Assembly: GCF_035593305.1 (NCBI RefSeq)
Contig: NZ_CP141615.1
Coordinates: 1,674,001-1,738,000, forward strand
Source: Limnochorda sp. L945t
Lineage (GTDB): Bacteria; Bacillota; Limnochordia; Limnochordales; Geochordaceae
Reading direction: 5' to 3'
DNA length: 64,000 nucleotides
This document shows positions 24,386-61,573 of the stretch, one piece after another. The translations under genes and the position numbers were made by a program. Within the stretch, counting starts at the first letter, position 1. Each line of letters begins with the position of its first letter. Under the pieces are notes generated by a model. That model made no database searches and was not told the DNA's origin. It was given only the letters and a program-made list of their open reading frames with translations.

Positions 24386-25465
24386 TTACCCGCGCGACTC
24401 GTCCCCCACCGCACCTTGGGACTCGACGGGGCCCACGATGCGCCGGCTCATGTCTGTGCCGAGATCGATCATGGCGCCGGTCCCGTCCCCCAGCTCCACC
24501 ACCGGCCGGGCCGGAAGGCCCGGCGTCAAGCGGACGACCCGGGCCACCTCCCCGGTGTTGAGCCGTACCCAGCAGCCCACCGGGTAGGGCGCCACTCGCG
24601 CCAGGAAGCGGCGGACCATGACCGGGTCGAAGGCGGTACCGGCCCGCTCGGCGATCCAGGCGATGGCTCGATCACGCCTCCACGCCGGCCGGTACGGGCG
24701 GTCGCTGGTAAGCGCGTCGAAGACGTCGACCACCGCCACCAGTCGCGCGAAGGGGTGAATCGCCTCCCGCACGAGCCCCCTCGGATACCCGGTGCCGTCC
24801 CATCGCTCGTGATGCTCCCAGGCAATGTGGGCGGAGCGAACGTCGAACGCACCCTGACGCCGGATCGCTTCGAAGCCGAGTCGGGTGTGCTCCTGGACGT
24901 AGCGGTACTCCTCCTCGGTCAGCTTCCCCGGCTTCGTCCATACAGATTGGGACAAGCGAGCTTTTCCGGCATCGTGGAGCAGTGCTCCTACCCCGAGCGC
25001 CTTGAGGTCGGCCCGATCCCACCCGCTGTGAATGCCCAAGAAGATGGCCGTCGCCGCCACGCTGACCGAATGCGCGAACAAGACGTCTTGAGCGGCCCGG
25101 ACGGCTTCCAGCTCGCCCAAGACTCCCGGGTGCTCCAACGCATCCTTCAGGATGGCCCATACCACCGGGAAGACGGGACGGCTCTGGATGGTGAGGCCTC
25201 TTTCCAATCGCTGCAGCTGGCGGCGCACCACTCGAAACGCCGCCCGCTTCGTCTCTTCTGACAACAGGCGAGGACACGCGTTGCGGTGCAAGGCTGCACC
25301 GGCCGAGGGGTAAACATAGAGAGTCCGTATGCCCAGTTCGCCCAGTCGCCGCAGGTGATAAGGACTCAACGTCGCCCCCGCCCGCAGCAACGCTCGCCCT
25401 TCCAGGTCGACATCCGTGGCCAGCACCATGCCGGCCTGTACGGTCTCCAGGGAAAGCATCAGCAT
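24386..25465 (-). CDS. HD-GYP domain cyclic-di-GMP phosphodiesterase
   Basis: 359 residues. The N-terminal third (MLMLSLETVQAGMVLATDVD, GRALLRAGATLSP) resembles the DUF3391-like start of many HD-GYP proteins. The C-terminal catalytic part has LLHDAGKARLS, AHIAWEHHERWDGTGYPRG and VVDVFDALTSDRPYRPAW, so the HD and GYP motifs are intact. A short PilZ-like or OB-like tail (CWVRLNTGEVARVVRLTPG) follows. ATG 25465 follows GGAGGAGA. It is 56 bp downstream of the FapA gene and hydrolyses c-di-GMP (family knowledge). Confidence 0.93.
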   Translation of the reverse strand: MLMLSLETVQAGMVLATDVDLEGRALLRAGATLSPYHLRRLGELGIRTLYVYPSAGAALHRNACPRLLSEETKRAAFRVVRRQLQRLERGLTIQSRPVFPVVWAILKDALEHPGVLGELEAVRAAQDVLFAHSVSVAATAIFLGIHSGWDRADLKALGVGALLHDAGKARLSQSVWTKPGKLTEEEYRYVQEHTRLGFEAIRRQGAFDVRSAHIAWEHHERWDGTGYPRGLVREAIHPFARLVAVVDVFDALTSDRPYRPAWRRDRAIAWIAERAGTAFDPVMVRRFLARVAPYPVGCWVRLNTGEVARVVRLTPGLPARPVVELGDGTGAMIDLGTDMSRRIVGPVESQGAVGDESRG

Positions 25466-25521: not shown

Positions 25522-27270
25522 TCAACCCTTCCAGGCTTCTGCCGTGATGCGCCCGTCGTGAAGGCGAAAACAGACCATCCGATAGGGGCGCGTCACCTTC
25601 ATGCGTTGTCCGCCGACTTGCAGGACGATGTCCGGGAGGACCGAGTAGGCGCACACCCGGAACTCCTGTCCCACGACGACGTGCGTCACGGCCGCCGGTC
25701 CTCCCAAGGTCTGGCACACCACGTCGCCTGCGGCCACCACGATCTCCCCGCCCACGATCCGCCCTGCAGGAGCCTCCAGCCCGGTGCCGGCATACAGATG
25801 GGATTGGTAGCTGCCCCGGCCGCTGAAGCGGATGCGGCCCGAAGCCTTGATCTCGCTGTGGTGCGCGTAGGGCACGCGAATCGAGGCTTCTCCCGCCTCC
25901 TCCGGCCCCAGACCCTCCCATGCCTGCCTCACCTGCTCGGTCAGGCCGTCCAACGTCGCTGCATCGACGTGGGCGGCGCCAGGCCCCGTGAGCCGCGCCG
26001 GCAACAACTGCGCGAGCTGCCCCGGCAGCTCGCCCGCGGCGGGATGGGCCTGCAACTGGCGCAGGCTTTCCCTCAGGGCCGTCCCCTTGCGCTCGAGGAC
26101 GAACGGCACCACCTCGTTGTCTCGTCGCCCGCTCTGGCGCACGACGGCCGATGCTACCTGGCCCAGGTAAGCCAGCTCGTGCTCGATCCGCTTCAGAAGC
26201 GCTTTCAAGGTCATCTGCGCCGGTACGGCTTCGGAGCCCGCAACCAGGGTAGAACGAAAGATGCTGCCCCCGACCTGAATGCTTTGCGCGGACTCGATGC
26301 GTGCGCCGTCGACGCCTCCCCCGATCTCGACCTTGCCCCCCGCGGCAATGGCTGCTCCCTCCCGGACATGCCCGAGCACGAGGACGTCACCGGGGAACCG
26401 GATGGTCACGCCGGCTCCGGCCAGATCGCCAGGAACCCGGTGCACCGGCTGGACTCCGATCGTCGTGCCGTGGACCAGCAACCGGCCGCCCCGGGCGGCG
26501 GTCACCGTGAGGCCGTCGGGCGAAAGTTCCGCCGCCCGTCCGGCCTGAAGGGGCGGGTCACGAGGAGGCGGAGGTGGGATAGGGGCGCCCCGGACCGATC
26601 GTCCTGGTTTCCCCGGCTCGGCCGGGGTCTTGTACGCCAGTACCTGGCCGGCCTCGACGAGCGCGCCCGGCGCGAGGCCCTCGGCCAGCTGCACTATCGC
26701 ATCCCGGGGCGGTTGCGGGCCATCGCCTCGGGCCACCACGAGCGGCTCGCCTTCCGAGCCGCCACCTGCGTTGGCCAGCTCGATGGCCTGTTTCAACGCT
26801 TCGTCGTCGATCCCGTGGCACACCCGGGCAGCCTGCAAAGCAGCCGTAACGTCCCCCAGGGTCACCGGCCGGGCGTCGATCGTGCCGACGGGTTGCGTCT
26901 GGACCTTGAGGTAGGTTGACGGCGGGCTGTCGGCGATGGCATGACGGGTACCGGGCTTGCGCCGGATACGAAGGACGACCGTGAGTTCGTCTCGGCTCAC
27001 CTCCACCTGTACGTCGACCGCCGGTGGAACGTCCACCGCCTCCAGGCGGAGCTGGTCACGGGGGAAGATCACCGTCGGTGCTTGGAGCAGGCGATCATTG
27101 CAGTAGATCCGGACGTGTTCCCCGGGCTCGATGGTCGGGAAGGCCCCGCGGCCCTGAGGAGGGGTGTACTGCACGGCTCCGTTGACGATTGCCAGCGTGC
27201 CGTGAACAGGGGCGACGCCGGTCGCCGGTGGGGGCTTTGGGGATGTACGGTAGGCAAAACGCGGTCGCAC
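25522..27270 (-). CDS. FapA/DUF342 family protein
   Basis: About 582 residues. The N-terminal part (GAFPTIEPGEHVRIYCND) and middle beta-solenoid (GVTIRFPGDVLVLGHVREGA, GKVEIGGGVDGARI, QSIQVGGSIFRS) match the FapA/DUF342 family, first linked to polar localisation in Vibrio. A helical segment (LKALLKRIEHELAYLGQV) follows, as usual. I place the start at GTG 27270 because the ATG at 27303 lies inside the riboswitch; AAGGTGG is the ribosome binding site. The gene is 56 bp upstream of the HD-GYP gene and probably co-transcribed. Confidence 0.85.
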   Translation of the reverse strand: MRPRFAYRTSPKPPPATGVAPVHGTLAIVNGAVQYTPPQGRGAFPTIEPGEHVRIYCNDRLLQAPTVIFPRDQLRLEAVDVPPAVDVQVEVSRDELTVVLRIRRKPGTRHAIADSPPSTYLKVQTQPVGTIDARPVTLGDVTAALQAARVCHGIDDEALKQAIELANAGGGSEGEPLVVARGDGPQPPRDAIVQLAEGLAPGALVEAGQVLAYKTPAEPGKPGRSVRGAPIPPPPPRDPPLQAGRAAELSPDGLTVTAARGGRLLVHGTTIGVQPVHRVPGDLAGAGVTIRFPGDVLVLGHVREGAAIAAGGKVEIGGGVDGARIESAQSIQVGGSIFRSTLVAGSEAVPAQMTLKALLKRIEHELAYLGQVASAVVRQSGRRDNEVVPFVLERKGTALRESLRQLQAHPAAGELPGQLAQLLPARLTGPGAAHVDAATLDGLTEQVRQAWEGLGPEEAGEASIRVPYAHHSEIKASGRIRFSGRGSYQSHLYAGTGLEAPAGRIVGGEIVVAAGDVVCQTLGGPAAVTHVVVGQEFRVCAYSVLPDIVLQVGGQRMKVTRPYRMVCFRLHDGRITAEAWKG

Positions 27271-27386
27271 TTGGTTCACCACCTTCGGTAGCCCGGCCGG
27301 CATGGCCTTGCGGCTTTAGCCCCGTGGCTTTGGGCCCCGTCCTTTCGGAACGGTTTCCCCTTGTCGGGTGGGAGGTGGGTCACGCC
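27268..27386 (-). promoter_or_regulatory. Cyclic-di-GMP-I (GEMM-I) riboswitch
   Basis: Reading the minus strand: AAGGGGAAACC, a stem capped by a GAAA tetraloop (CCGTTCC-GAAA-GGACGG), then CCCAAAGCC, a second stem with a CTAAAG / CCATG tetraloop-receptor-like bulge and GCAA cap, then GGGCTACCGAAGG. Order and spacing match the GEMM-I consensus. The 3' strand (GAAGGTGG) doubles as the ribosome binding site of the FapA gene and can pair with CCACC at the 5' side, suggesting translational control. Confidence 0.85.
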
Positions 27387-27398
27387 GGAGATGCAGGG

Positions 27399-27614
27399 CT
27401 AGCGGTTCATGGAGGGCGGATGTCGCTCCCTGAACCAGTCCACCGTGCGGCGGGTGGTGTCGAGAAGGAAGAGCTGGATCTCGCCGTAGACCAGGTGGGC
27501 CAGCGACTCGAGGTCCTCGGGCGAGTACGAGGCCCCGGACGCTTCGAGGAAGTCGCGCACGAGGTCGCGCAGGCGTTTTCGGTCGACGATGCGCTCGACG
27601 TCCACGTACTCCAT
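27399..27614 (-). CDS. Uncharacterised 71-residue protein upstream of the c-di-GMP riboswitch
   Basis: A short acidic/basic helical protein (MEYVDVERIVDRKRLRDLV to HPPSMNR) with no signal or membrane segment. The ATG has a near-perfect ribosome binding site (GAGGAGGT, 7 bp spacing), the best reason to call it real. It ends at the 5' edge of the riboswitch. Not recognised; possibly a small cytoplasmic partner of the same module, since the genes point the same way. Confidence 0.6.
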   Translation of the reverse strand: MEYVDVERIVDRKRLRDLVRDFLEASGASYSPEDLESLAHLVYGEIQLFLLDTTRRTVDWFRERHPPSMNR

Positions 27615-28131
27615 GGCAGGGACCTCCTCACGGCAGGCTTGGAAAGACGCGAAGGGACAGGGCGGGCAAGGAGACGCGTGGCGACGGGGGCAGCGGCCCG
27701 GGGTGTAGTCAGACTATCTGGCAAATCCTGGGGGGGGGGGTACGGTGGATCCGGACAAGGCCGCCAACGACGCAGCCGCGTACATGGGCGCGGCACCGCA
27801 CACTGCCGTGGGCAGCGCCGCAGGTACGCCGATCTCTCGCTGATAGATGCCGGTGCGCCGCCGCGCGGCCGGCAAGCCTAACCACGCTACGCGACCGGCT
27901 CCAGGCATCGACGGGCGCAACAAACCCGACCCCATCCCCCGGAGCTGAGGCGTGCATTCGACGCAGGCCGAGAAAATCCTACGGAATTCGTGAGCCGCGC
28001 GTCAAGCCCGGCGCTGCGCAAGTGGATACGCCGGGCCGAGATGGACGCCAGAGAGCCGTGCACCGCGCCTGCATGGAGTGCATGCGTACCATCCACGCTG
28101 CAGCCGGAGCACCTACGGGGCGGGTGGGCCT
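27615..28131. other. Intergenic stretch without a recognised gene
   Basis: About 515 bp. Open frames here are short and unlike proteins. It contains a run of 11 G residues at 27730-27740, immediately after an AT-rich patch. No riboswitch or RNA gene was recognised. A promoter for the leftward c-di-GMP module is expected here but no clear -35/-10 pair was found. Confidence 0.5.
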
Positions 28132-61497: not shown

Positions 61498-61573
61498 TGG
61501 TGCCGAGAGCCGGAATCGAACCGGCGACACCGGGATTTTCAGTCCCGTGCTCTACCAACTGAGCTATCTCGGC
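61498..61573 (-). tRNA. tRNA-Phe (GAA)
   Basis: 76 nt on the minus strand with encoded CCA. Acceptor GCCGAGA/TCTCGGC, D-arm TAGCTCAGTTGGTAGAGCA, anticodon stem GGGAC-TGAAAAT-CCC type with GAA anticodon, T-arm GCCGGTTCGATTCCGGC. Remnants of an integrase lie on its 3' side. Confidence 0.97.

Follow-up and report, generated by a model that had tools for sequence, protein, structure and literature searches.

A GEMM-I riboswitch whose closing helix holds the Shine-Dalgarno sequence of a fapA paralogue in Limnochorda sp. L945t

The stretch of the Limnochorda sp. L945t genome analyzed here (64,000 nucleotides, referred to as the window) carries a genuine GEMM-I riboswitch, confirmed at the sequence level as a further case of a known class, directly before a fapA gene. 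The element belongs to the class-I c-di-GMP riboswitches and probably switches off translation of the adjoining fapA in cis when c-di-GMP is high. It would represent a compact switch of this class in which the closing helix of the aptamer is also the ribosome-binding site. The aptamer, its overlap with the Shine-Dalgarno sequence (SD), the identities of the genes and the recurrence of the riboswitch-fapA pair were all computed in this analysis, and feature coordinates are collected in Table 1.

Table 1. Coordinates of the predicted riboswitch, its neighboring genes and the related five-gene rows
Feature	Coordinates	Strand	Basis
GEMM-I aptamer core	27284..27369	-	RF01051, 71.4 bits
P1 5' strand CCACC (proximal register)	27367..27371	-	Sequence, folding, P1 covariation
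P1 3' strand GGUGG, core of the fapA SD AAGGUGGUGA	27279..27283	-	Sequence, folding
fapA, 582 aa, GTG start	25522..27270	-	PF20250 and PF03961; SD position for the start
HD-GYP phosphodiesterase gene, 359 aa, own ribosome-binding site GGAGGAG	24386..25465	-	PF13487, 106.2 bits
71-aa ORF, SD GAGGAGG	27399..27614	-	Homologue in G001; ends ~30 bases before the aptamer
Five-gene row	L102 6647-11611 (G028); L103 6379-11446 (G033)		Pfam

A cmscan search of the whole window returns a full-length match to RF01051 (c-di-GMP-I, GEMM-I) that covers model positions 1-87 of 87 with an E-value of 5.2e-12 and a score about twice the gathering score of 35 bits. A preliminary description of this DNA had proposed a minus-strand GEMM-I aptamer, to be checked with this covariance model, from the order of its elements, a GAAA-capped stem and a receptor-like bulge, and all of these are present in the RF01051 alignment. 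P2 is capped by the GAAA tetraloop, P3 contains the receptor-like bulge CUAA (GGCUAAAGCC), the conserved junction CAAAGCCACGG is in place and the ACCGA at the 3' end of the aptamer provides the junction CC expected near that end. Numbered as in Rfam, the junction contains the pairs G12-C37 and G13-C36; the consensus has C-G in place of the latter, so that both of its bases have changed in a compensatory way. With P1 added, the aptamer spans 27371-27279; the interval 27268-27386 of the preliminary description includes leader and the start codon besides the aptamer. The window copy is the only GEMM-I site found in a scan of the 3.31-Mb genome, and since GEMM-I is carried by 33 of 41 related genomes, its occurrence here is not due to chance. 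No GEMM-II element was found in the same genome, using a model that gave no match in control genomes either.

The gene behind the aptamer encodes a FapA protein, as first described, with both Pfam domains of the FapA/DUF342 family scoring above their cut-offs (PF20250, FapA_N, 95.7 bits against 27; PF03961, FapA beta-solenoid, 69.2 bits against 31). Translation likely starts at GTG 27270, because a strong SD, AAGGUGGUGA, lies just 5' of this codon and is a near-perfect complement of the anti-SD (-14.0 kcal/mol). The alternative ATG at 27303 is an unlikely start that falls within the aptamer, which supports the initial warning that the gene start could be misplaced. As a paralogue the window protein is divergent, sharing at most 34% identity with any other FapA in the set, and a second FapA of the same genome is encoded within a chemotaxis/flagellar locus. 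The FapA tree places the window protein apart from the remaining GEMM-linked FapAs, with a long branch leading to it; a separate origin of the window riboswitch-fapA pair was considered and set aside, as one clade of GEMM-linked FapAs is not rejected (p-AU 0.42). FapA is not limited to Gammaproteobacteria, since it is also found in flagellar operons of spirochaetes (PMC11607428) and a flagellar-locus copy exists here.

The overlap originally noticed between the aptamer and the fapA ribosome-binding site resides in P1, as the 3' strand of this helix is the core of the SD. A second CCACCU at 27378-27373 (minus strand) is able to replace the P1 5' strand. When the aptamer pairs are forced during folding, the unpaired probability of GGUGG is at most 0.05 at 37 °C and at most 0.09 at 65 °C. 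In unconstrained folds of the GC-rich leader the SD is mostly paired already (unpaired probability 0.05-0.6), so switching is not proven by folding alone. When the longest transcript (27640-27240) is folded, some of the partners of the SD lie outside the adjacent leader, and a competing leader-aptamer helix formed by CCGGCGUG and CAUGCCGG appears in minimum-energy folds only. When its C-rich 5' strand is shuffled, the window P1 by itself is not significant (p 0.48). An SD in the P1 3' strand directly after the core is present at ten other GEMM-I sites of related genomes. Five sites, the window and four belonging to other genes of related genomes, share one register; pairing in their P1 reaches 96%, and four of the five pairs differ on both sides. 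None of 500 shuffles reaches a covariation score as high, and slid versions of the helix are 40-68% paired. The conservation of SD-P1 pairing while both strands change points to masking of the ribosome site by a ligand-stabilized helix.

No terminator follows the window aptamer. A strong intrinsic terminator is located between aptamer and fapA at 9 of the 12 other GEMM-I-fapA loci, and its upper stem complements the 3' ligand-binding strand of the aptamer at -12.9 to -20.2 kcal/mol. Against shuffles this complementarity gives p 0.014-0.16 per locus, values that are individually modest and come from loci related to each other. The arrangement is that of an OFF switch, in which the ligand would hold the aptamer strand and allow the terminator to form. 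Two different platforms, one with the SD in P1 and one with a terminator, thus predict the same direction of control for fapA.

The 41 related genomes contain 81 GEMM-I sites, which precede flgB/flgC, Tad/Flp pilus, chemoreceptor and other genes, the names being read from translated starts and not from profile matches. fapA comes directly after GEMM-I at six of these sites, distributed over four families (the window and five other relatives), compared with a chance expectation of about 0.03 for this adjacency in relatives when 2500 genes per genome are assumed. A scan of GTDB with five GEMM-linked FapAs then identifies 14 loci, 5 of which were already known, and GEMM-I lies just upstream at seven of the nine others, the exceptions being L115 (Carboxydocella) and L121. 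A genome-wide scan using the window FapA as the sole query yields no confirmed relative, and two related FapAs of genome G016 have no GEMM-I match close by. Altogether there are 13 GEMM-I-fapA loci including the window, among them the near-identical L119 and L120. The widespread FapA/DUF342 family, whose role is obscure, gains from this a recurrent link to c-di-GMP, with a predicted sensor heading the gene in most members of one FapA subfamily. The pairing was not found in the open-access literature, the search reaching few subscription papers and supplementary gene lists.

In the proposed mechanism, high c-di-GMP would lock the three-helix aptamer together with P1, and because the P1 3' strand is the fapA SD, ribosome start would be blocked and no FapA, a protein of flagellar-assembly type, made. 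At low c-di-GMP, P1 would open more readily and fapA would be translated. The HD-GYP gene has its own ribosome site and would be affected, if at all, via polarity or mRNA decay; such an effect would add a self-reinforcing loop in which high c-di-GMP results in less phosphodiesterase. With OFF as the best-supported direction, any effect on the phosphodiesterase would therefore be positive feedback and not homeostatic. Ligand binding, the OFF direction and the effect on HD-GYP are the inferred parts of this scheme.

The aptamer’s predicted ligand is c-di-GMP rather than cGAMP, in agreement with the preliminary description, because the RF01051 alignment places a G at Rfam position 11, the equivalent of G20 in Vc2. 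The same position, G11 in Cd1, sets selectivity between cyclic dinucleotides (PMC9262584). A change at G20 can shift the specificity of a GEMM-I aptamer, which is the ground for considering a GEMM-Ib variant that binds 3',3'-cGAMP, but with the selective G in place this is the least probable of the alternatives. The genome itself encodes five GGDEF domains, five HD_5 domains and flagellin. As to direction, an ON switch would require the ligand-bound fold to disrupt a structure that hides the SD, so that high c-di-GMP raises both FapA and HD-GYP and feeds back negatively through the phosphodiesterase. Class-I ON switches such as Bc2 exist (PMC6366702), negative feedback on a phosphodiesterase would be sensible and the free fold predicts an SD that is mostly paired without ligand. 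This reading is nevertheless improbable, given that the ligand-stabilized P1 itself contains the SD in a layout that recurs at other genes, and that the terminators of sister fapA loci complement the aptamer 3' strand as in an OFF layout. An SD predicted to be mostly hidden in either state would also suit a degenerate, non-switching relic, and a decayed half-aptamer does occupy the orthologous place in the same-family genome G001. The window copy, however, retains a score of 71.4 bits, the conserved junction letters and the compensated pair of the junction helix, which leaves a relic highly improbable.

The extent of the controlled unit is a separate matter. A phosphodiesterase gene follows fapA after a 56-base gap, as the preliminary description had stated; its HD-GYP identity is given by PF13487 and by motif alignment, and c-di-GMP hydrolysis is predicted. 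Its H/HD/K/H/HH/D residues (HD, HDAGK, H, HHERWDGTGYP, D) align with the HD...HDxGK...H...HHExWDGxGYP...D residues of PmGH (4mcw), among them its metal ligands. The third-metal Glu of PmGH is not conserved, and a two-metal site is likelier. The initial proposal that the switch governs fapA together with HD-GYP is likely for fapA, whose ribosome site overlaps the aptamer, and is not established for HD-GYP. That the whole unit is controlled, mainly for feedback on c-di-GMP degradation, is possible though doubtful. The two genes are adjacent in the window, and an HD-GYP gene lies in the same row behind fapA in G028, G033, L118, L119 and L120, behind a terminator where the leader is readable. Control in the window, on the other hand, seems to be translational, and a separate SD serves HD-GYP; moreover, fapA has no HD-GYP gene behind it in G027, G037, L123, L126 and L128. 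HD-GYP therefore accompanies fapA at 6 of 11 readable loci and is missing at five (L125 and G035 end too soon and were left out).

The riboswitch of those five HD-GYP-containing relatives is followed by a row of five genes, fapA - STAS - HATPase - HD-GYP - SpoIIE phosphatase, confirmed with Pfam in G028 and G033 and located by tblastn in L118, L119 and L120. This row would constitute a partner-switching module under a predicted c-di-GMP riboswitch. A broader reading takes GEMM-I and fapA as a conserved c-di-GMP-silenced unit, extended in several lineages to the STAS, HATPase anti-sigma, HD-GYP and SpoIIE phosphatase genes, such that high c-di-GMP silences FapA, the partner-switching module and the phosphodiesterase that degrades it, and creates a double-negative, bistable motile/sessile RNA switch; this is rather unlikely. 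No description of such a bistable switch for a class-I c-di-GMP riboswitch was found in the open-access literature searched. Genome G001 also argues against HD-GYP as the obligate target, as it keeps the gene without an intact aptamer or fapA. There, the HD-GYP orthologue (73% identical) stands behind the 71-aa ORF, fapA is absent from that place, and a decayed half GEMM-I aptamer that has lost its 3' strand lies between the two genes (L131, 9397-9540). The half aptamer aligns locally to the window aptamer with a score of 68, compared with 42 for the best of 2000 shuffles, and is below Rfam detection even at E 10. Judged by its sequence it is a fossil riboswitch, with a deletion having apparently removed fapA and half of the aptamer and left HD-GYP. 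The joint loss of fapA and riboswitch, with HD-GYP remaining, suggests that fapA is the invariant partner and that control of HD-GYP is secondary; fapA may thus be the constant target and phosphodiesterase control optional.

Among known systems, Cd1, which precedes the flgB flagellar operon of C. difficile, also belongs to RF01051, has a flagellar-type target and is OFF at high c-di-GMP, as is predicted for the window switch. Cd1 works by a terminator and controls the flgB operon, whereas the window switch has its SD in P1, is predicted to be translational and precedes a fapA paralogue with HD-GYP behind it. For Vc2 of Vibrio cholerae, likewise GEMM-I, a translational OFF mechanism has been described that depends on how stable P1 is (Inuzuka 2018, cited in PMC9262584). 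The ribosome site that Vc2 masks lies far from its aptamer, whereas in the window it forms the 3' strand of P1. Control of c-di-GMP metabolism by c-di-GMP riboswitches is rare (PMC6366702), so the link to HD-GYP, if shown, would be unusual and possibly a rare case of an RNA switch over a c-di-GMP-degrading enzyme. Geochorda cells (Geochordaceae) are immotile despite flagellar and chemotaxis genes (PMC11456536), and a putatively c-di-GMP-silenced flagellar-type gene, probably present in Geochordaceae, offers a testable link to this trait.

The 71-aa ORF upstream of the aptamer has a 59% identical homologue in G001, belongs to no Pfam family and may be the transcript's first gene. With its strong SD and its homologue, it suggests that the riboswitch may lie between cistrons and not in a plain 5' leader. 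No sigma-70 promoter is found close to the aptamer, with one weak match at 28005-27976. About 100 bases 5' of the ORF, the sequence CCAGATAGTCTGACTA (27706-27721) is also found conserved in G001, occurs only once in the window genome at up to two mismatches, and is possibly a regulator or promoter site.

Tandem GEMM-I aptamers about 190-220 bases apart occur at L065, L069, L077 and L078, the first followed by a terminator-like hairpin and the second with an SD in P1; all four pairs precede similar genes for small, secreted-looking proteins. Also in G001, an HD-GYP gene immediately precedes a gene for a fusion protein (L108, 8250-10547), in which FapA carries an anti-sigma-type HATPase domain (PF13581) at its N-terminus. 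Outside the family, HD-GYP has its nearest match, at 49% identity, in G004 (L110, 10417-11499); the gene there likewise adjoins a fapA-like gene, but without GEMM-I. Finally, the window contains a tRNA gene at 61501-61573 on the minus strand (RF00005, 76.3 bits), with the anticodon GAA (Phe) assigned by eye.
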